The translations under genes and the position numbers were made by a program. A DNA stretch of 64,000 bases, taken from positions 162,686 through 226,685 of the forward strand of contig CAIUMP010000044.1 of NCBI GenBank assembly GCA_903900335.1, given 5' to 3'. The notes beneath the pieces were generated by a model. It was not told the origin of the DNA and did no database searches. It worked only from the letters and a program-made list of their open reading frames with translations. Positions 21,499 through 38,296 of this stretch are shown one piece after another (position 1 is the first letter of the stretch; each line of letters opens with the position of its first letter). The DNA comes from an uncultured Ignavibacteriota bacterium (GTDB lineage Bacteria; Bacteroidota; Ignavibacteria; Palsa-1295).

Positions 21499-21540
21499 AC
21501 GATGAGGGGACTATGGATGACGATTACGGGGAAATCTTTC

Positions 21541-21573
<33 letters not shown>

Positions 21574-21580
21574 CCCCTGC

Positions 21581-23335
21581 ATGTCTTCGGCCTGCGATAT
21601 TTTCATCTCCTATTCGAGCTCCGACGCCGCGCTGGCATTCGGCCTTGCCGACCGTCTGCGCCGCAAGGGATATTCTCTTTGGATTGATAAGGAGGGCATC
21701 GGCGGCGCGACATCGTGGAGCAAGGAGATTGCGGAGGCCATCGTAAACTGTCGGGCGCTGGTGGTGTTGCTGTCGTCGGAGTCTGTGAAGTCCGAGCACG
21801 TAGGCCGCGAAGTTCTCATCGCGGCGGAGAAGCAGAAGGCGATCATTCCGGTTGATCTCGAACGCGTTGAGTTGCCATCGAGTCTGCTCTACACGCTCGC
21901 TGGTATCCAGCGCGTGCCGCATACAAACGACGATTTGCTGTGGAAGACGCTGGAGCGATTTGGAATTAGTAGTGCTCCCGTCGTTACAAATTCCGGCTCC
22001 GAATTCACTCCTCTACCCCCCGATCCTTTTGGTCGCAAAACCCTCGCGGTGCTTCCTTTCGAAAACCTGAGCAGCGATGCAGAAGATCGTTGGTTCGCGG
22101 AAGGCTTGACGCATGAGCTTATTAACGTTCTCTCTCAGATCCGCGCGTTGCGCGTGAAGGATCGGAAGTCGGTCGGCAGCTATAACACGACGGGCAAATC
22201 TCTCTCGCGTATTGCGGACGAATTGGGTGTCGAGTATATCCTCGAAGGCACCGTGCGCAAGGCCGGGGATAAACTCCGCGCGACCGCCGAACTCATCGAC
22301 GTTCGCAACGACGATCATCTCTGGAGCGATACCTTCAAAGGCACGCTCGACGATATTTTCGAATTACAAGAGCGCATCGCAACAGAGATTGCCTCAGCAC
22401 TCAAACTTAAGCTCACGCTCGAAGAACAATCGAATGTCGGCAAGCGGCTGACAGATAATCTCCAGGCGTATGAAGCGTATGTGAAGGCGGAGGAGATCGC
22501 GGCGGCGTCTTTTACGGCATTCGAAGAGGTTCTACGATATGCGAATCTTGCTTTAAAGGAGGATGCCGGATTTTCGGAGGCGTGGACGATGAAATCCCGC
22601 GCGCTCAATGGCATGGTGATGAACTTAGGCTTCCCGCTCCGCTTTGCCGACGAGGCAAGGGATGCCGCCACCACTGCTCTCAAGTACTACCCCCACTCCG
22701 CAAAGGCGTTCGTCGAGCTGGCACATGCTCATGCGCTGCTCGACAACCGGGATGACGCACTCCGCGCAAGAGCGCGCGCCATTGAGCTTGACGCGAACGA
22801 TTCGTATGTTCTGATGAAAGCGGGAGTAACACTTTCGATCCTCGGCGATTTCCGCGCCGCGCTCGCGGACTTCGAACGAGGGCGCACGATCCGCCCAGAT
22901 GATATCTCTCTTATCGTCAATGAGGCATGGGCCGCATCATCGGCGGGAGATGACGCCCTCATTCAATCGCTGATCGAGAGCAGCCTGCCATTCATGGAGC
23001 GCGAAATCACGCTTCATCCCGAGGACGTGACCTATCTCGCGCTGGTGGTTTGGGCGCTTGCAATCTCTGGACAAAAGGATGACGCTGTTGCACACACCGC
23101 CTCTCTCCTGCAACCGCCAGACGACCCCTACTCTGCCGCCGTGTGCGCGCTCGGACTCTTCGCATGTGATATGATTGATGAGGGCTTCGAAGTTGCACTC
23201 GCTGCACCGGGTGTGATCCCGCTTGTTCGTTATACAGCGATGCTCCCGCAACTCCCCGTGCTGTTGAGCGATCCGCGCTATTTCCTTCTGGAAGAGCGCC
23301 GAGATAATGAGTTGGAGGAATTGGCCGCGCGATAA
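21581..23335 (+). CDS. TIR / FlgO(TolB-N)-like / TPR protein
   Basis: 584 residues. The TIR_2 domain covers residues about 5-120 (DIFISYSSSDAALAFGLADR, WIDKEGIGGATSWSKEI, VVLLSSESVKSEHV). The FlgO/TolB-N-like domain covers about 155-285 (KTLAVLPFENLSSDAEDRWF, YILEGTVRKAGDKL, DDIFELQERIA). TPR-like helices run to the C-terminus. It starts 83 bp after the TPR-HTH gene on the same strand. The gap holds ATGA-rich sequence and TTCATCATTCATC repeats that could form a hairpin. Whole-length paralog at 1-1339. Proposed role is cytoplasmic signalling or cell-suicide type NAD+ cleavage; neither is shown by sequence alone. Confidence 0.83.
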   Translation: MSSACDIFISYSSSDAALAFGLADRLRRKGYSLWIDKEGIGGATSWSKEIAEAIVNCRALVVLLSSESVKSEHVGREVLIAAEKQKAIIPVDLERVELPSSLLYTLAGIQRVPHTNDDLLWKTLERFGISSAPVVTNSGSEFTPLPPDPFGRKTLAVLPFENLSSDAEDRWFAEGLTHELINVLSQIRALRVKDRKSVGSYNTTGKSLSRIADELGVEYILEGTVRKAGDKLRATAELIDVRNDDHLWSDTFKGTLDDIFELQERIATEIASALKLKLTLEEQSNVGKRLTDNLQAYEAYVKAEEIAAASFTAFEEVLRYANLALKEDAGFSEAWTMKSRALNGMVMNLGFPLRFADEARDAATTALKYYPHSAKAFVELAHAHALLDNRDDALRARARAIELDANDSYVLMKAGVTLSILGDFRAALADFERGRTIRPDDISLIVNEAWAASSAGDDALIQSLIESSLPFMEREITLHPEDVTYLALVVWALAISGQKDDAVAHTASLLQPPDDPYSAAVCALGLFACDMIDEGFEVALAAPGVIPLVRYTAMLPQLPVLLSDPRYFLLEERRDNELEELAAR

Positions 23336-27434: not shown

Positions 27435-27603
27435 CCTGAATTCCTCATTACGCAAATTAATCTCTCTGGAACCGAGTTCTGATTAGGGAATGTCTGAATT
27501 CCGGTAGAAAAGGGGGACGCATTTCTGCCCTATTTGCCGGAAGCGCTTCGCTGGCAATTCAAGTTACAACCTGCACAGTGTTGTATATTTGGAGGCGAAG
27601 TCC

Positions 27604-28080
27604 ATGGAATACTATTTTGGGACCGCACTAATTGATAGGATGAAAAGTCTGCTTCTCATAACGTCCGCCGTCGCGATCGTGGTAATGCTCGGTTTCGACT
27701 ACATCGGCGGCATTGACTCGTTCACTGCCCGCCCGGATGGCGATGGCATCACGCTTGAATGGCGTTCTCAGTCTGAGGTCGGTGTGAAGAATTACACGAT
27801 CGAGCGTTCGGACATCCAGAGCACGAACAACTTCCAGGAGGTTGGCACGGTCGCGATCGCGGGCAATTACACCTACTACAAATTCCACGATGGCAGGATC
27901 AATGCCGCTGGCCTCGCCGGTCAGAGTGGACAGGTCAAGACACTTTCAGACGCATACAAGTATCGTCTCCGCATGAATCTTTCCAGCGGAGAACTTAGCT
28001 ACTCCCAGACGATCAACGTCACTCGCCCATCCAGCGGTGTTCGCCGCACGTGGGGAATGATCAAGGAGATGTTTCACTAA
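27604..28080 (+). CDS. Membrane-anchored FN3-like small exported protein
   Basis: 158 residues from ATG 27604, with GGAGG 8 nt upstream. An N-terminal hydrophobic helix (SLLLITSAVAIVVMLGFDYI) anchors or exports it. The rest resembles a fibronectin-type/Ig domain: FTARPDGDGITLEWRSQSE VGVKNYTIERS, YKYRLRMNLSSGELSYSQTI. Such domains occur in FCB surface and gliding proteins; no enzyme motif. TATATTTG overlaps the ribosome binding site region at 27584-27591. Confidence 0.65.
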   Translation: MEYYFGTALIDRMKSLLLITSAVAIVVMLGFDYIGGIDSFTARPDGDGITLEWRSQSEVGVKNYTIERSDIQSTNNFQEVGTVAIAGNYTYYKFHDGRINAAGLAGQSGQVKTLSDAYKYRLRMNLSSGELSYSQTINVTRPSSGVRRTWGMIKEMFH

Positions 28081-28103: not shown

Positions 28104-28149
28104 AAGTCGCCCTCTTTTTGCTGAGAACTCAGCAAAAAGAGGGCGACTT
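28104..28149. terminator. Perfect 46-nt palindrome, terminator-like
   Basis: Two 22-nt arms are exact complements around a 2-nt centre (core GCTGAGAACTCAGC, outer AAGTCGCCCTC). It lies 24 bp after the stop of the FN3-like gene and contains T and A runs in its arms, so it could terminate in either direction. Confidence 0.75.
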
Positions 28150-28322: not shown

Positions 28323-29033
28323 ATGAAAAATTGTCTTCGCACATACGGTCACTTAGTTCTACTGGCGACGCTTCTATTCAGTGCGGCAACGAGCCGTGCG
28401 ACTGACCCGAAGCTTTCCTTGAGGTTCGGCGTTGATTCCACAATGTTTGTACTTCAACTCGACCCCAACGAGAAGCCGAAGTGTGGCTCAACATTCCATG
28501 CGACCATCCACGTGACACCCGGTCCCGTCTGGCACATCTGGAGCGCCTCGATGAGCGCCGATGGCGGCCTCACGCCGCTCAAGCTGAAGCTGCCAGAGAC
28601 CATCCAGAAATACTTTGAGATCGTCTCCATCAAGGAAGTTGGAAAACTTACGCTTGGCTTTGACTCCAGCTTCATGACCGACACGAAGGCGCACTTCGGC
28701 AAATACGACATCATCGCAACCATCAAGGTGAGGGACAACGCCCCTGCGCCAGTGCCGTTCTCGATCTATGTCTATTTCCAGACCTGTAACGAAGTACTCT
28801 GCCTTCCGCCTCGCACGTTCGCAGTGCCGATGACATTTGCGGGCCAGAAGCCGATTGAACTAACTATCGCGCCAGGAACGGCAGACACGACCCATTTAGC
28901 CGGCGAACCACCGGTCGAGACTTCGGACAAATCGTCGATTATGGAAGATAAAGACGGTGACACGTTCGGGAGATTTTTTGCGATGGAAAGTACTGCAATC
29001 GCGCAGCCCATCTATCGGAGAATGGCTGGATGA
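28323..29033 (+). CDS. Exported DsbD-alpha-like protein 1
   Basis: 236 residues. A signal peptide (MKNCLRTYGHLVLLATLLFS AATSRA) is followed by one domain like the N-terminal alpha domain of DsbD: TFHATIHVTPGPVWHIWSAS M, GGLTPLKLKLP, PFSIYVYFQTCNEVLCLPPR TF. The CX4C pair in TCNEVLC matches the redox pair position of DsbD-alpha (CX5C in E. coli). A ~45-residue tail follows. It is the first gene of a four-gene unit and overlaps the next start by 4 bp (ATGA). Likely a periplasmic thiol carrier taking electrons from the DsbD membrane domain. Confidence 0.82.
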   Translation: MKNCLRTYGHLVLLATLLFSAATSRATDPKLSLRFGVDSTMFVLQLDPNEKPKCGSTFHATIHVTPGPVWHIWSASMSADGGLTPLKLKLPETIQKYFEIVSIKEVGKLTLGFDSSFMTDTKAHFGKYDIIATIKVRDNAPAPVPFSIYVYFQTCNEVLCLPPRTFAVPMTFAGQKPIELTIAPGTADTTHLAGEPPVETSDKSSIMEDKDGDTFGRFFAMESTAIAQPIYRRMAG

Positions 29034-29608
29034 AGAGAGTCCTGCTACTGGCATTGGCGACGATCGCGCTCGGAGTAGCGTGCGGGGGATCGCTGTATGC
29101 GATCGGTTTGGAGCCGCGATTGGAGAAGCACATGTGGTCGGACTCCACACGGCTGACGCTCAAGCTCGATCCGAACAGCAAGGTCGAAGCTGGAAAGAAT
29201 TTCGATGTGAACATTCACATCACACCCGGTACAGGGTTCCATGTCTATAGCGCAAGCATGTCCGCTGATGGCGGGTTGGTGCCGCTTACAGTGAAGGTGC
29301 CAACTGCACTCGATAGTTTTTTTGAGATCGTTGGAGTGAAAGAAGTTGGCGAGATGGAGTCGCGATTTGACTCATCCTTCTCGATCGACGTCAAATCCTA
29401 CTCCGATCCATTCGATGTGGTCGTCACGCTGAAGGCGAAGGAGAACTCGGCTGCGCCCATCCCTTTCAATCTTTACGTCTATTTCCAGACCTGCATGAAA
29501 TCGCAATGCATGCCAGCGCGCACGTTTGCCGTGCCGATGACAGTGCTCGGTGAGAAGCCGATTGATCTGACGATCGCACATGGCACTGTACCCAAATCAC
29601 ACGGATGA
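29030..29608 (+). CDS. Exported DsbD-alpha-like protein 2
   Basis: 192 residues, essentially only a signal peptide and the alpha-like domain. Motifs are NFDVNIHITPGTGFHVYSAS M, GGLVPLTVKVP, PFNLYVYFQTCMKSQCMPAR TFAVP, with the CX4C redox pair kept. It overlaps both neighbours by ATGA, so the set is translationally coupled. Close paralog of the preceding gene; substrate unknown. Confidence 0.82.
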   Translation: MKRVLLLALATIALGVACGGSLYAIGLEPRLEKHMWSDSTRLTLKLDPNSKVEAGKNFDVNIHITPGTGFHVYSASMSADGGLVPLTVKVPTALDSFFEIVGVKEVGEMESRFDSSFSIDVKSYSDPFDVVVTLKAKENSAAPIPFNLYVYFQTCMKSQCMPARTFAVPMTVLGEKPIDLTIAHGTVPKSHG

Positions 29609-30312
29609 AACGAGTTCTGCTAACGGTGGTGGCTGCTGCCGCGCTTGGAAGCGCGTGGATAGCGCCGTGCCGAGCAGGGAGCAAACCGCCTCGGATTGAG
29701 AAGAAATTAGGGCCGGACTCCACAATCCTGACCTTGAGACTGGACACTAAGACTCATCCAAAATCCGGCGGCACGTTCAAGGTTTACCTGCACGTGAATC
29801 CAGGACGCGACTTTCATATTTACGGTTCTCATTTGGCTCAGGATTGCTGCGAGGCGCCTCTGAGTGTTAGTCTTCCTCCACAATTGGCTAGTTTTTTTGA
29901 GATAACAGCCATCAGAGAATTGGGCACACTCGTCACTCGATACGATTCTTGCTTCCAGCAGCCAACTCCTGCGTACTACAATCCATTCGACGTGGTCGCA
30001 ACAGTTCGCGTGAAGGGGAGTTCGGATGCACCCATTCCGTTCTATCTTCTGGTTCGATTCATGACGCTCACTACTTCGCAGTGTATGCCTCCCCGAACCT
30101 TCGTTGTTCCGATGGAGGTGCTCGGCGAGAAGCCAATCGACTTGAAGATCGCGCATGGCAAGCCAGTGGGAACGAAGCGTGCGGAAAAGTTGAAAGCCTC
30201 GGAGAGGTCCTCCATGATGAAGGATTCACAGATTTATCGCGTTAGTATAGTAACCAGCGAAAACAATTTTAGGGAAATGATGTGCGAAATGAATGTGGGG
30301 AGGGGTGCGTGA
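29605..30312 (+). CDS. Exported DsbD-alpha-like protein 3, first redox Cys replaced
   Basis: 235 residues. It has the signal peptide and the alpha-like fold (TFKVYLHVNPGRDFHIYGSH, PFYLLVRFMTLTTSQCMPPR TF). The first Cys of the pair is replaced (MTLTTSQC where sisters have QTCMKSQC); only the second Cys remains. Extra cysteines occur elsewhere (AQDCCEAP, YDSCFQQ). A ~45-residue C-terminal extension carries a further Cys. It may have a changed disulfide pattern or be a non-redox binding arm. The stop overlaps the dsbD start (TGATG). Confidence 0.78.
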   Translation: MKRVLLTVVAAAALGSAWIAPCRAGSKPPRIEKKLGPDSTILTLRLDTKTHPKSGGTFKVYLHVNPGRDFHIYGSHLAQDCCEAPLSVSLPPQLASFFEITAIRELGTLVTRYDSCFQQPTPAYYNPFDVVATVRVKGSSDAPIPFYLLVRFMTLTTSQCMPPRTFVVPMEVLGEKPIDLKIAHGKPVGTKRAEKLKASERSSMMKDSQIYRVSIVTSENNFREMMCEMNVGRGA

Positions 30313-32471
30313 TGAAAGCAGCAATGAAGAACCTGGTAGGTTTGGTCGCGCTCGGCTTTGTGCTAAGTCTTGCGCATGAATGTCTTGCTCAAGATCCGCA
30401 TCGTGTTGACTCACTCATCAAGAATGACTCTAGTACTTTCTTCTTGAAGATCGACCCCCAGACCAAACCAACCACCGGTAAAACTTTTCGGGCCATTATT
30501 CATGTGGTACCGGGGCATCACTGGCACATCTATAGCGCAAAACTATCTCGCGAGAGTGGAATTGATCCGCTTTCAGTATCGCTGCCATCTAGCCTGCTAC
30601 CATACTTCGAGATTACAAATGTCGAGGAGAGTGGCAAGCCCATCGTAAAGTACGATTCTAACTTTCAAACTGTTACTAAGTACCAATCACGGCCATTCGA
30701 TGTCGCTGTATCCATCAAGGCAAAAAAGAATTCAAAGGATCCCATTCCATTTTCCTTGTTTGTTCGATACACAACGTGCAATGAGGGATCGCAATGTATG
30801 CCACCGCGATCATTTGCGGTACCGATGGTGGCATTGCATCAGAAGCCCCTGCAACTAACCATCGCCTATGGCACCCCTGACACCACTTCGAAATCCATCG
30901 GCTCTCTTCTCGACACCTCCTCCAAAGGCGGCTTCGGTCACGACTCCACGGGCCGCATAGGGCAGACAGCTGGGGGTGCATCAAGCGAGCCACCGATGAG
31001 CGGGCCACCGGCGAAGGCGGTGATCGTTGACAAAGGAATCGTGGGTGTTGCGGAAGAATCCATTTGGAAATTCATTCTTGCGGCTGCTGGCTTTGGATTG
31101 CTTGCACTGCTGACGCCCTGCGTCTTCCCGATGGTGCCTATCACAGTGAGCTTTTTCACGAAGCGCAACGCTGGTTCGAAGAAGGAAGCAACGAAGGACG
31201 CGCTGCTTTATGCGGGTGGTATCATCGTTACCTTTGTCGCGCTTGGCTTCTTGCTTTCGCTTGCAGCGGGTCCAGCGGGTATCAATGAGTTTGCGGCGAA
31301 TCCGTTCGCGAATTTAATAATCGCGGCGATATTCGTCGCGTTCGCGTTGAATCTGTTCGGCTTGTTCGAGATCGGTGTACCATCCTCCATCCTTTCGAAG
31401 TTGAACACCACAGCACAGAAGAGCAAGAACCGCGCGTTCTCTGTTGTGCTGATGGGATTCGTCTTTTCGCTGACAAGCTTTACCTGCACGGTGCCGTTCG
31501 TCGGTACGCTGATGGTCGCGTTCTCACGCGGCTCATGGTTTGTGCCGCTGATAGGCATGGTGGTCTTTGCAAGTATCTTCGCGTTGCCGTTCTTCCTTCT
31601 GGCACTCTTCCCGAATTTGATGAAGTCACTGCCGCGCTCCGGCACGTGGATGAACAACGTAAAGGTCGTGATGGGATTTTTGGAGATCGCCGCCGCGCTG
31701 AAGTTCTTCTCGAACGTTGACCTAATTTGGTCCTGGCATTTCTTCTCGCGTGATATGGTGCTGGCGACGTGGATGGCTATCGCGATCATCGTCACGCTCT
31801 ATTTGCTGGGACGCTTCCAGCTTTCACACGACACACCACTGGAAAGCATCGGTGCGATCCGGGTGCTGATCGCGGTGGTGTTCCTTTCGATGGGCATTTA
31901 TCTTTACACCGGGCTCAACGGTCGCCCGATGGGTCAGCTTGACGCATTCCTTCCACCGAATGATACCGAAGGGCAGTTGCAAATGGCAACCATGATGCCA
32001 ACGGGTTCTGCGGGTGGGCAAGGAATGCAGAACGGACAGAGTCCGCAGGGTGCTGCTCAGCAAATGCAGGCTCCGGTTGCCGCGCAGTGGTTTCCGAGTT
32101 ACCCAGCGGCGCTGGCCGAAGCAAAGAAGACCGGCAAGAATATCTTCATTGATTTCACCGGTTACACCTGCACGAATTGCCGCGCCATGGAGGCGACGGT
32201 CTTCTCGCGACAGGATGTGAAGCAGATGTTTGGGAATTTCGTACTTGCGCGCTTGTACACCGATAATGGTACGCCGCTCAACGATTCCAACCGCACGCTG
32301 GAAGAGGCACGATTCAACACGATCGCCCTCCCCTTCTATGTGATCGTCTCGCCGGATGATAAGCCGCTTGGCACCTTCCCTGGCTTCACTCGCGATGCGG
32401 AGTCCTTCAAGACCTTCCTTCGCGAACAGTCATCTCGCCCGAGTCCTGCCGTGGCAATGCTTGGCAAGTAG
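30312..32471 (+). CDS. dsbD: Thiol:disulfide interchange protein DsbD
   Basis: 719 residues from ATG 30312 (preceded by a GGGGAGGGG ribosome binding site). The N-terminal alpha domain spans about 20-195 with TTCNEGSQCMPP (CX5C). The CcdA-like membrane domain spans about 245-570 with ALLTPCVFPMVPI and SFTCTVPFVG, the two membrane cysteines. The C-terminal thioredoxin domain contains FTGYTCTNCRAME (CxxC). It carries cytoplasmic reducing power from thioredoxin to periplasmic thiols. All three redox pairs are present. It ends a unit with three stand-alone alpha-like proteins, which suggests several exchangeable output arms. A Gly/Gln/Met-rich linker precedes the thioredoxin domain. Confidence 0.94.
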   Translation: MKAAMKNLVGLVALGFVLSLAHECLAQDPHRVDSLIKNDSSTFFLKIDPQTKPTTGKTFRAIIHVVPGHHWHIYSAKLSRESGIDPLSVSLPSSLLPYFEITNVEESGKPIVKYDSNFQTVTKYQSRPFDVAVSIKAKKNSKDPIPFSLFVRYTTCNEGSQCMPPRSFAVPMVALHQKPLQLTIAYGTPDTTSKSIGSLLDTSSKGGFGHDSTGRIGQTAGGASSEPPMSGPPAKAVIVDKGIVGVAEESIWKFILAAAGFGLLALLTPCVFPMVPITVSFFTKRNAGSKKEATKDALLYAGGIIVTFVALGFLLSLAAGPAGINEFAANPFANLIIAAIFVAFALNLFGLFEIGVPSSILSKLNTTAQKSKNRAFSVVLMGFVFSLTSFTCTVPFVGTLMVAFSRGSWFVPLIGMVVFASIFALPFFLLALFPNLMKSLPRSGTWMNNVKVVMGFLEIAAALKFFSNVDLIWSWHFFSRDMVLATWMAIAIIVTLYLLGRFQLSHDTPLESIGAIRVLIAVVFLSMGIYLYTGLNGRPMGQLDAFLPPNDTEGQLQMATMMPTGSAGGQGMQNGQSPQGAAQQMQAPVAAQWFPSYPAALAEAKKTGKNIFIDFTGYTCTNCRAMEATVFSRQDVKQMFGNFVLARLYTDNGTPLNDSNRTLEEARFNTIALPFYVIVSPDDKPLGTFPGFTRDAESFKTFLREQSSRPSPAVAMLGK

Positions 32472-32503: not shown

Positions 32504-32537
32504 GGCACTTCGGGCAACCGAGGTGCCGTTTTCTTTT
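32504..32537 (+). terminator. Terminator of the dsbD unit
   Basis: GGCACTTCGG GCAA CCGAGGTGCC followed by GTTTTCTTTTT; a 10-bp stem with a GNRA-type loop and a T-rich tail. Confidence 0.88.
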
Positions 32538-32609: not shown

Positions 32610-34268
32610 ATGCTTCGACTTCGTCTGATCCTGTGGTACTCGCTGTTGGTGTTGCTGACGATCTCGGCGATCGGGTTCTTCCAATATTACCGGATTCGGC
32701 AATCCCTGTTTGCGGCACTCGATGCCTCGCTCGTTGACGACGCCCGAACAACGCTCTCTCTGGTCAGCACCCTGCCTGCCAGTGCGAACAAGGAGGAGAT
32801 GCATCGACATGGTGAGGTGCATTCGGCGAATTCACTTCGTGAACTGATCGATCACGCTTTGCAGGAAGTGCCCGACACCATGCGCGGCACAGAGCTTGCC
32901 GACCGAGTGGTGAGCGAGATCATTGACCAAGTGCTCTCCGAGTTATCTTTTCAGGACTCCGGCGGGCGCATGGCTGATCCACTGGATGCCATTGTGGAGC
33001 GATCCGTATCGAGCCGGCGAAATAATCTTGTGGAGGTCTACGGCGTAACCAAGGACGCCGCGAATCGCACGCACGAAGAGGTCTTTTTTCGAACGGCGAA
33101 TTTAGGGACGGACACCATCATGCGCGCGGTGCGCCCTCGGCAGGAGCATTGGAGTTCGGATACGACGGCCGCTTACAGCACCATCTCATTCCGGGACGAA
33201 CACGTCCGCGTCGCCCGTGCCCACAACGACCGCTTTGATGTGTACGTCGGATTCCCAGTAACTGATATCGAAGATAGCTTGAACAGCTTCTGGGATTCGT
33301 TCTATATCGGATTGCCCATTGCGCTCGTGATCTCCATACTTGGTGGGCTGTGGCTCGCGCGAAAGGCATTGCGACCGATCGAACAGATCGCGGGAATGGC
33401 ACAGGAGATCGGGGCAAAGAATCTCTCTAAACGCATCGAACTTCCCGGTAAGCGCGACCCCGAATTGATGACACTCATCGAGACGCTGAACTCCATGTTC
33501 GCGCGATTGGAAAGCTCCTTCCAGCAAGTCTCTCAGTTCACGTCGGATGCATCACACGAGTTGAAGACGCCACTCTCCATCATGATGGGTGAGATCGAGC
33601 AAGCGGAGCGACATCTCGAGACCGCGAACTCCCTCGATCCGGAAGAGGCGCGGCAAGTGCTTATCAGTCTGATGGAAGAGGTCGATCGGATGCAGCGGAT
33701 CGTGGAGGGCCTCCTTCTGCTTTCGAAGACGGACGACCGCCAGCTTGCTTTGCATCGGGAGTCGATCGTCCTCCTGGATTATCTGGAGTCACTCGGTGAA
33801 GACGCAACGATCCTTGCTGAGGAGCGCGGGTTGAATCTGAAATGTGCTCTGGACTCCCATGCGAAGAACGTGCGCATCTCAGCAGACAAGACATGGCTCT
33901 ACCAAGTCGTGATGAATCTTCTGGATAATGCCTTGAAGTACACACCTGAAGGAGGAACAGTCACGCTGTTCCTAGAACCCGCCGGGCACGAGTTGCGCTT
34001 TGGAGTGGCGGACACAGGCCCAGGTATTGCGAAGGATGACTTGCCAAAGATCTTCCGACGGTTCTATCGCACCGATGAAGCTCGGAGCGGACCGAGCGAT
34101 ACAACACACCGTTCACTTGGGTTAGGGCTTGCGATCGTGAAATCCATTGTCGAAGCACATGGCGGGACCATCGAGGTCACAAGCGAGCTTGGCCACGGCA
34201 CTCGTTTCACCGTGGCGATGCCCACGGATGCACACCCCACACTGGGTGTCGGAACAAGCAATGAATAG
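32610..34268 (+). CDS. Orphan sensor histidine kinase
   Basis: A 552-residue membrane kinase. TM1 is at the N-terminus (LILWYSLLVLLTISAIGFF), a ~200-residue periplasmic sensor follows, TM2 is about residues 228-250 (FYIGLPIALVISILGGLWLA R), then HAMP (ALRPIEQIAGMAQEIGAKNL), HisKA with phospho-acceptor His in SDASHELKTPLSIM, and HATPase with NLLDNALKYTPEGG, VADTGPGIAKDD and SLGLGLAIVKSIVEAHGG. The layout resembles CusS/HeavyMetal-type kinases. No response regulator gene is adjacent. It is just downstream of the dsbD terminator, so probably independent. Confidence 0.92.
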   Translation: MLRLRLILWYSLLVLLTISAIGFFQYYRIRQSLFAALDASLVDDARTTLSLVSTLPASANKEEMHRHGEVHSANSLRELIDHALQEVPDTMRGTELADRVVSEIIDQVLSELSFQDSGGRMADPLDAIVERSVSSRRNNLVEVYGVTKDAANRTHEEVFFRTANLGTDTIMRAVRPRQEHWSSDTTAAYSTISFRDEHVRVARAHNDRFDVYVGFPVTDIEDSLNSFWDSFYIGLPIALVISILGGLWLARKALRPIEQIAGMAQEIGAKNLSKRIELPGKRDPELMTLIETLNSMFARLESSFQQVSQFTSDASHELKTPLSIMMGEIEQAERHLETANSLDPEEARQVLISLMEEVDRMQRIVEGLLLLSKTDDRQLALHRESIVLLDYLESLGEDATILAEERGLNLKCALDSHAKNVRISADKTWLYQVVMNLLDNALKYTPEGGTVTLFLEPAGHELRFGVADTGPGIAKDDLPKIFRRFYRTDEARSGPSDTTHRSLGLGLAIVKSIVEAHGGTIEVTSELGHGTRFTVAMPTDAHPTLGVGTSNE

Positions 34269-36469: not shown

Positions 36470-36529
36470 TGATTTCGCCCTCCTTCACTACAAAACGGGG
36501 TGGTGGAGGAGCGCTGAGAATTGACATCT

Positions 36530-38296
36530 ATGAAAACAAACGAGATTCCTTTCGTCCCAGCGGAGCTTGCAAGGGCCGAGCAGTTGTCCAACGAAGGCAA
36601 GTACTCTCAGGCCGCGGCGGTCGTGAAAGCAGTGTTTGCACGGCCGGATCGCAATGTCAAACTTTCGAGCGATGGGGAGGCCTTTGGACATATACTGCTT
36701 GGCGTATGTTGTGTTGTGGCATCCGAAACAGCGCAGGCGCTGATGCACTTCAATCTGGCTCACCAGTTGGCGGTAGCAACCGCAAATCTGTCCTTGCAAT
36801 CGCGGGCATTGAGTTCGAGGGCGAAATTGTATGGCATTGTCGGCAACTACGAGGGAATGATTGCCGACGCAGAGCAAGCCTTGTCCTCTGCAAGAATTGC
36901 GAATGATAGAATAATGGAGGCGAGAGCGATAGAGGGTCTCGGATATGCCTCCCGGCTTCTTGGAGAATTGACCAGAGCGTTGGAGTATTACAAACTTGGC
37001 CTCGAGTTAGGAGTTGAAAAACATTATGTTCGGGGCGTTCTTCACCAAGGGCGCGGATACGTCAGTATGCGGCTTGGAGACTACCCACAGGCTCTAGAAC
37101 ATCTTTGGAATGCACTCCTGCTTGCGGAAGAAATGGGATGGAAACCTCTTCAACAAGGCTGTATCGCAGGTTTGGGTTCGGTGTATCACGCTATCGGAGA
37201 CTACACCCGCGCGGTGGAATACAAAACACACGCGCTGGCCCTGATCGAGGAGCTTGGCGATAGGGCAGAAAGCGTGATTTTGCGTACCAATCTTGGCAAT
37301 ACGTACTGCCTGATGGGCGACTATTCTCATGCGCTTCTTCACTATAGACAAGCGCTCGAAGAAAGTCATCAAATCGTTACACCAAGGTCGGTGGGCTACC
37401 TCTTGCACGGCATCGCGGTGGCTGAGTCGAGGTTGGGAAATATTGATGTCGCAGAGCGAGGCCTGTTGGCGGCACTGCAACATCGTCGCACCGTGCTGAA
37501 GTCAAACGATGGGGTCAATGAAACGCTGGTTGAGCTTGGTAAGGTGCTGCTGGCCCAGGGCAAGATTGAAGAAGGCATCAGCCTCCTCAAGGAAGGACTT
37601 AGCTTGTCAGATCAGGTAGGCGACAGAGATTCGGCCTCGTATGCTCACGGGGCCTTAGCGGATGCCTTTGCCAAAACTGGTAGCGTCAGCGAGGAGGTTG
37701 CCCATCTGCGAAGCTACCATATGCTCCGCGAAGCGATCATGGGAGTCAACACCCGGAGGCAGATCGACACCTTCAATATCCGCGTAGCCATTGCAGACAA
37801 AGAGCGCGATGCAAAGCTCGCACGATTGGAGAAAGAGCAAGCCGAAGCCGCCCTTCGCCTCAAAGAACGCGACCTCGCCAACACCGCATCCTCGCTCGCG
37901 GCGCAGACGGAGCTGCTCGGGAATTTCCGGGCGGATTTGCGAAAGATCGTGCTGCGTCCCGACCGCTATGAGCCGGAGGACATCCTCCGCCAGGTAAAGG
38001 CAAAGCTGAAAGAGTTGCCGCGCGAGATGATCGACTTCTCCAAGTTCGAAGGACAGTTCGCTACCGTGCACCCGGAGTTTCGCGCGAAGCTTGAGACGAA
38101 ATATCCGGAGCTTACTCCGCAAGAAGTGAAGATGTGCATGCTCATTCATGTCAATCTTCAGACGGCAGCGATTGCACGATTGATGTGCATCTCGGAGCGC
38201 ACCGTCGAAGACCACCGCGCGAACGTCCGCAAGAAGATGAGTCTGCAGCGATCGGACGATCTCGCGAAGCATCTGCGGGGGATAGATGCGAAGTAG
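36530..38296 (+). CDS. TPR protein with coiled coil and C-terminal LuxR-like HTH, paralog
   Basis: 588 residues from ATG 36530. An in-frame TTG at 36521 has a better-spaced GGAGGAG (9 nt) and may be the real start. TPR units (LGELTRALEYYKLGLELGV, LGDYPQALEHLWNALLLAEE, MGDYSHALLHYRQALEESHQ) lead to the same coiled coil and C-terminal block as the 19567 gene (LTPQEVKMCMLIHVNLQTAA IARLMCISERTVEDHRANVR KKM). In 129 aligned bases of that block (37856-37984 against 21034-21162) I count 8 differences, all synonymous. The TPR part is much more diverged. Confidence 0.8.
   Translation: MKTNEIPFVPAELARAEQLSNEGKYSQAAAVVKAVFARPDRNVKLSSDGEAFGHILLGVCCVVASETAQALMHFNLAHQLAVATANLSLQSRALSSRAKLYGIVGNYEGMIADAEQALSSARIANDRIMEARAIEGLGYASRLLGELTRALEYYKLGLELGVEKHYVRGVLHQGRGYVSMRLGDYPQALEHLWNALLLAEEMGWKPLQQGCIAGLGSVYHAIGDYTRAVEYKTHALALIEELGDRAESVILRTNLGNTYCLMGDYSHALLHYRQALEESHQIVTPRSVGYLLHGIAVAESRLGNIDVAERGLLAALQHRRTVLKSNDGVNETLVELGKVLLAQGKIEEGISLLKEGLSLSDQVGDRDSASYAHGALADAFAKTGSVSEEVAHLRSYHMLREAIMGVNTRRQIDTFNIRVAIADKERDAKLARLEKEQAEAALRLKERDLANTASSLAAQTELLGNFRADLRKIVLRPDRYEPEDILRQVKAKLKELPREMIDFSKFEGQFATVHPEFRAKLETKYPELTPQEVKMCMLIHVNLQTAAIARLMCISERTVEDHRANVRKKMSLQRSDDLAKHLRGIDAK

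Follow-up and report, generated by a model that had tools for sequence, protein, structure and literature searches.

Three free-standing DsbD-alpha-like proteins, one without the first active-site cysteine, precede a complete DsbD in an Ignavibacteriota genome

Introduction

DsbD is usually depicted as one chain with one outer arm. Katzen and Beckwith reportedly expressed the domains of Escherichia coli DsbD as separate chains. PMC4460558 gives the order of the pathway as thioredoxin, beta, gamma, alpha and client, and PMC7347389 describes C109 of the E. coli alpha domain as thought to initiate reductant transfer and a cap loop as shielding the cysteine pair. A literature search, which covered titles and the starts of abstracts and had most subscription papers outside its reach, gave no description of free-standing DsbD alpha proteins. 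Here we describe an operon from an uncultured, soil-type Ignavibacteriota bacterium (contig CAIUMP010000044.1, positions 162,686 to 226,685) in which three such proteins, referred to as arms 1 to 3, precede a complete DsbD. The window is the whole stretch of 64,000 nucleotides, to which all window coordinates refer.

Results

Three exported arms precede a complete DsbD

Four genes on the + strand at 28323-32471 encode, in this order, arm 1, arm 2, arm 3 and DsbD (Table 1). Each arm is a small protein of one domain, and all three start with a hydrophobic, signal-peptide-like stretch from which export is predicted. The junctions of arm 1 with arm 2 and of arm 2 with arm 3 are overlaps of 4 bp (ATGA at 29030 and 29605), and arm 3 overlaps dsbD by 1 bp (TGATG at 30312). 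This agrees with the initial annotation, which had described three exported DsbD-alpha-like paralogs before a complete DsbD with overlaps of 1-4 bp.

The tethered alpha domain of the DsbD scored 23.0 bits with Pfam DsbD_N, slightly under the cut-off of 25. The DsbD_TM membrane domain (PF02683, 104.4 bits) holds the pair C270 and C392, and the thioredoxin-like gamma domain (PF13899, 48.6 bits) holds CTNC at 620-623. With a two-cysteine alpha, a two-cysteine DsbD_TM and a CxxC gamma, the protein encoded at 30312-32471 is a complete DsbD.

Arms 1 and 2 are DsbD-alpha homologues with both active-site cysteines (C155/C160), which align with the E. coli pair. Arm 2 scored 25.6 bits with DsbD_N, above the same cut-off, and arm 1 scored 18.6 bits, under it; NCBIfam assigns no name to any of the three arms. 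Domain identity to arm 2 is 52% for arm 1, 50% for arm 3 and 47% for the tethered alpha of DsbD. When an alignment of 26 such domains was compared with E. coli DsbD using hhalign, the cysteine pair fell on C103/C109 and the Phe of a DS-x-F motif on the cap-loop residue F70, at a probability of only 22.5 (E 9.3e-4). This cap-loop Phe is present in all three arms (DSSF, DSSF and DSCF, respectively).

Structure models were made for arms 2 and 3 and searched against the PDB, and arm 1 was judged by sequence. For the arm 2 model (predicted local distance difference test, pLDDT, 88.0; predicted template modelling score, pTM, 0.84) the top Foldseek match was the ScsB N-terminal domain (E 4.3e-4). In a second fold comparison, rows 1-11 were all ScsB or the N-terminal domain of DsbD (nDsbD), with a best Z of 9.9 over 112 residues and a root-mean-square deviation (rmsd) of 2.8. 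The fold comparison recovered nDsbD where PDB sequence searches had not; the search with arm 2 gave one chance-level match and the search with alignment A3 gave 0 matches. Sequence identity, predicted fold, and the placement of the cysteine pair and the cap-loop Phe on C103/C109 and F70 support the earlier classification of the small proteins as DsbD-alpha-like.

Arm 3 lacks the first active-site cysteine

The initial annotation had presented the three arms alike and overlooked that arm 3 has L155 in place of the first active-site cysteine. Arm 3 had 0 matches to DsbD_N. Its model (pLDDT 79.9, pTM 0.73) gave Neisseria meningitidis nDsbD as the top Foldseek match (E 4.9e-4), and in the second comparison rows 1-10 were nDsbD and row 11 was the ScsB N-terminal domain (best Z 10.9, 111 residues, rmsd 2.9). 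Arm 3 therefore has the homology and fold of a DsbD alpha domain and the second of its two active-site cysteines, but not the first; it is an alpha homologue and is not classed as a redox-active alpha arm. We refer to such proteins as mono-Cys arms. Additional cysteines occur in arm 3 at C81, C82, C116 and C227. At alignment columns 55-60, which hold C81 and C82, arm 3 and two of the other four mono-Cys arms have CC or CxC, and a cysteine occurs there in 0/21 other domains.

Because arm 3 has no resolving cysteine, it has no internal disulfide of the kind that arms use to release a reduced client. Judged from its sequence, arm 3 cannot cycle by the standard DsbD mechanism and is most likely a non-cycling paralogue that is either docking or decaying.

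The cysteine loss recurs in the dsbD-proximal arm

We compared 13 genomes of the family (the identical 13 for the order), seven of which belong to the genus and six to other genera. DsbD was present in 13/13. The genus genomes hold 13 free arms in total (3, 2, 2, 1, 2, 1 and 2), and none was found in the six family genomes of other genera. The same gene order in relatives had been proposed as a check, and a similar order does recur across the genus; the operon arrangement is thus not due to chance. Named relatives with the operon are metagenome-assembled genomes (MAGs) labelled Ignavibacteriae, Candidatus Kapaibacterium and Bacteroidetes bacterium, several of them from soil or permafrost judging by their isolate names.

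The arm adjoining dsbD lacks the first cysteine in 5/7 genus genomes, and the remaining 8/13 free arms are intact. In each multi-arm operon (n=5) it is precisely the dsbD-proximal arm that has lost this residue. The chance that five independent losses would hit these five of the 13 arms is 1/1287, though a common origin is possible instead. Genomes G007 and G009 have one intact arm apiece; in G009 an open reading frame (ORF) of 498 aa with 0 Pfam matches lies between the arm and dsbD.

Twelve columns are invariant in all 21 domains that have both cysteines. Of these columns, arm 3 and the corresponding G005 arm deviate only at the first cysteine, and the other mono-Cys arms have lost two (G008), three (G006) or five (G010) of the 12. 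The second cysteine is conserved in 26/26 domains, including 5/5 mono-Cys arms. Between G006 and G010, nonsynonymous divergence (dN) reached 0.49 in the mono-Cys arm, compared with 0.125 in arm 1 and 0.060 in DsbD alpha. Synonymous divergence (dS) was >1 or saturated, so dN alone was compared (YN00 mostly failed). These data indicate that protein evolution of the mono-Cys arm is fast, but not free.

Free arms accompany DsbDs with an altered tethered arm in other Bacteroidota

A profile of the 26 domains gave matches in 96/198 phylum genomes and 104/197 class genomes. At 31 loci with short or double matches, all 48 alpha domains found keep the cysteine pair. Where a free arm lies upstream of DsbD, the tethered alpha is in several cases Cys-less or absent. 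We then took a census of all 54 DsbD-size loci (open frame of at least 440 aa) in 49 other Bacteroidota genomes, selected without regard to arms. The 49 genomes were chosen by eye among same-phylum genomes beyond the PF02683 matches listed, so that some may be missed, and class-level genomes were excluded. A cysteine pair was scored as C-x(3-7)-C in the stretch preceding the membrane domain. Loci L045-L075 had originally been picked for arm matches, and only the 11 belonging to the 49 genomes entered the count. Outside this 2x2 table stand 37 more loci, hand-picked for family spread from the PF02683 matches listed, and earlier arm-selected loci, some of which combine a free arm with an intact tethered alpha (L045-L047, L051, L054, L060, L073).

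In the census, 10/54 loci were without a Cys-bearing tethered alpha, and nine of these 10 had a free two-Cys arm directly upstream (L067, L069, L070, L071, L072, L074, L075, L102 and L118). Among the remaining loci a free arm was seen in 1/44 (L048). The Fisher p value for 9/10 versus 1/44 is 1.8e-8, calculated on related genomes that are not independent. The nine loci fall in families f29, f32 and f37. Within f29 and f32 together the counts are 8/8 versus 0/3 (p 0.006), L105, L111 and L115 having an intact tethered alpha and no free arm. Apparently, then, a free arm can stand in for the tethered arm in trans. Because free two-Cys arms adjoin DsbDs whose tethered alpha is Cys-less or absent, these data support arms 1 and 2 as trans electron carriers. 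The suggestion that the extra soluble arms are electron arms is thus supported for arms 1 and 2, which have both cysteines and the census behind them, and not for arm 3; with its first cysteine gone, at most two of the three arms are ordinary electron arms. Double-alpha DsbDs and free arms occur repeatedly in Bacteroidota, and the statement that a normal DsbD has one alpha arm is too narrow there.

Three further structures were noted among the loci examined. L118:919-2927 (minus strand) encodes an alpha-less DsbD with alpha in a separate, slightly overlapping ORF, which is either a natural split or a frameshift; it was scored as a free arm despite possibly being a single frameshifted gene. The DsbD at L061:2405-5083 (minus strand) is apparently divided among three ORFs, which encode beta-gamma (486 aa), alpha (261 aa) and an additional arm (174 aa). 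L107:1080-2426 (minus strand) is a DsbD-like ORF of 448 aa.

Genomic setting

Terminator-like hairpins flank the operon (Table 1); the consensus scan found nine such sites in the region versus 5.4 +/- 2.4 in shuffles. Directly upstream lies a small gene (27589-28080) with one hydrophobic stretch and 0 Pfam matches, and ORFs resembling it occupy the same position in G005, G008 and G009. In the window dsbD is followed by a sensor histidine kinase gene (32610-34268), and in relatives by a fused homocysteine S-methyltransferase/methylenetetrahydrofolate reductase gene (L023:8812-10782, L025:8644-10623). Farther away, an ORF at 21521-23335 has a start that resembles a TIR domain, and a long ORF at 36521-38296 has TPR-like repeats followed by a LuxR-type DNA-binding end, both judged by eye. 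A phage origin of the arms was considered and rejected, as a PHROGs search gave 0 matches for all three.

The initial annotation had suggested that extra arms would let one hub feed several periplasmic clients, and cytochrome c maturation proteins had been proposed as partners. The genome does contain three Cytochrom_C_asm matches, and also 14 Redoxin matches; none of these lies in the operon, and therefore a client cannot be assigned (no search for sulfoxide reductases was made). Elsewhere, the genome encodes another DsbD_TM protein of smaller size.

Table 1. Coordinates of the operon, its active-site codons and flanking hairpins in the window
Feature	Position	Strand	Basis
Arm 1 (P0001, 236 aa), exported DsbD-alpha-like protein, C155-x4-C160	28323..29033	+	ORF, Pfam, alignment
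Arm 2 (P0002, 192 aa), exported DsbD-alpha-like protein, C155-x4-C160	29030..29608	+	ORF, Pfam, alignment, fold model
Arm 3 (P0003, 235 aa), exported DsbD-alpha-like protein, L155 for the first active-site Cys, C160 kept	29605..30312	+	ORF, alignment, fold
C81-C82 codons of arm 3, loop Cys pair	29845..29850	+	alignment columns 55-60
CTC (Leu155) of arm 3, E. coli C103 equivalent; Cys in all 21 two-Cys genus/family domains	30067..30069	+	alignment
TGT (Cys160) of arm 3, E. coli C109 equivalent; kept in 26/26 domains	30082..30084	+	alignment
DsbD (P0004, 719 aa): alpha (C156, C162), beta (C270, C392), gamma (CTNC, C620/C623)	30312..32471	+	ORF, Pfam, Cys positions
Tethered alpha domain of DsbD, C-x5-C	30390..30875	+	alignment
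Terminator-like hairpin of 20 pairs, separating the operon from the preceding gene	28104..28149	+	consensus scan
Terminator-like hairpin after dsbD	32504..32527	+	consensus scan

Discussion

We favor the interpretation, with a probability of about 0.62, that this operon encodes a DsbD with additional copies of its alpha domain made as separate secreted proteins, with arms 1 and 2 as trans carriers and arm 3 non-cycling. Electrons would pass from cytoplasmic thioredoxin to DsbD beta, on to gamma (CTNC), and then to the tethered alpha. Gamma would also reduce arms 1 and 2 in trans, and the reduced arms may diffuse and pass electrons to periplasmic thioredoxin-like clients. Arm 3 has retained the fold along with the cap-loop Phe and the C109 equivalent; it would most likely not cycle and could be a docking or regulatory partner or be decaying. 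In our estimate docking or regulation is about as likely as slow decay, and monothiol chemistry is less likely than either.

Several observations weigh against this interpretation. The tethered alpha of the genus is intact, which means that the arms here add rather than replace, and the replacement argument therefore holds by analogy only. The census has one exception, L107, with neither a tethered alpha nor a free arm. No client gene lies within the operon, and the named relatives are all MAGs. The mono-Cys arms, fast-evolving yet still open, are compatible with slow decay. Finally, in a maximum likelihood tree of the domains, arm 3 of the window clusters with arm 2 (94/94), apart from the other mono-Cys arms, and the mono-Cys arms of G006 and G010 form a long branch (100/99). 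Contrary to this grouping, the CC shared near one loop of mono-Cys arms favors a common origin. Approximately unbiased (AU) tests, done after the tree was inspected, rejected neither a single clade of all five mono-Cys arms (p-AU 0.339) nor one of the window, G006 and G010 arms (p-AU 0.24). A common origin of the mono-Cys arms is thus neither shown nor rejected.

The alternatives differ mainly in what they make of arm 3. It could be a duplicate that has lost its function and is decaying, which overlaps one branch of the interpretation above and which we regard as possible but not likely. The faster protein evolution of the mono-Cys arm, the loss of 5/12 invariant columns in G010 and the failure to find such an arm in 2/7 genus genomes speak for decay. 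However, an open frame and a signal-like start persist in 5/5 genomes, a dN of 0.49 with saturated dS means that amino-acid changes are still constrained, and the window and G005 copies have lost one invariant column of 12, the first cysteine, while the second is kept 5/5. Arm 3 might instead be a natural monothiol DsbD arm that evolved in the genus, is kept beside intact arms and uses the C109 equivalent alone, as a counterpart of the C103S mutant. Here the C109 equivalent would form mixed disulfides with DsbD gamma or with single-cysteine (sulfenylated or thiolated) clients, and an outside thiol would be needed to resolve them. We consider this doubtful, and less probable than decay. If it is true, the arm would either give the DsbD pathway a branch that works with one cysteine or act on the hub as a brake under redox control.

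Slightly less probable still is the view of the initial annotation that all three arms are working shuttles for different clients, here with arm 3 pairing C160 with C81, C82 or C116. These extra cysteines exist, and CC or CxC near the loop sets three of the five mono-Cys arms apart from the 21 other domains. On the other hand, the mono-Cys arms of G005 and G008 (2/5) hold only one cysteine in the domain, and the conserved alignment positions His45 (3/5) and Pro150 (2/5), though kept in arm 3, are also lost in mono-Cys arms. It is hardly credible that the arms are unrelated immunoglobulin-type domains with cysteines by chance, the alternative named in the initial annotation. Generic immunoglobulin-like folds (pilins, adaptin ears) do make up the lower part of the fold-search lists, and arm 3 has no Pfam match. 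However, arm 1, arm 3 and DsbD alpha are 47-52% identical to arm 2, the lists of the second fold comparison are headed by nDsbD and ScsB, and the cysteine pair aligns with C103/C109 of E. coli rather than lying elsewhere. For arms 1 and 2 this idea is refuted by sequence.

In several Bacteroidota lineages the outer arm of DsbD has apparently turned into a protein of its own, and the tethered arm is Cys-less or gone, giving a naturally split enzyme. In the present genus the tethered arm is intact and extra arms accompany it. The loss of one catalytic cysteine recurs there, so that natural proteins could be used to test how C103 and C109 share the work. The most useful points, in our view, are that this loss recurs in the arm next to dsbD and that the census shows a replacement pattern.

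Compared with known systems, the window DsbD has the same alpha-beta-gamma order and all six functional cysteine positions of E. coli and N. meningitidis DsbD, and the arms match the alpha domain of these proteins by sequence and fold. E. coli DsbD differs in having a single tethered alpha and no adjoining arm gene; the window adds three separate exported arms, one of which is without the C103 equivalent. The free DsbD_N (PF11412-like) genes of other Bacteroidota (L045-L048, L051, L054, L067-L075, L102) also place a two-Cys alpha directly upstream of DsbD. There, however, the tethered alpha is often Cys-less or missing, and no mono-Cys arm was seen among the 48 alpha domains inspected. Double-alpha DsbDs (L051, L052, L054-L059, L109, L148) likewise provide more than one alpha for one DsbD, but within one chain and each with its cysteine pair. 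The ScsB N-terminal domain (PDB 6c29), of which only the fold was compared, matches the models of arms 2 and 3, with identity and Z below those of nDsbD for arm 3. Arm 3 also resembles a laboratory mutant, C103S, of N. meningitidis nDsbD (PDB 2k0r, by its title) in having C109 without C103. That protein was engineered, whereas arm 3 is natural, carries other substitutions and has counterparts in four other genomes of the genus.

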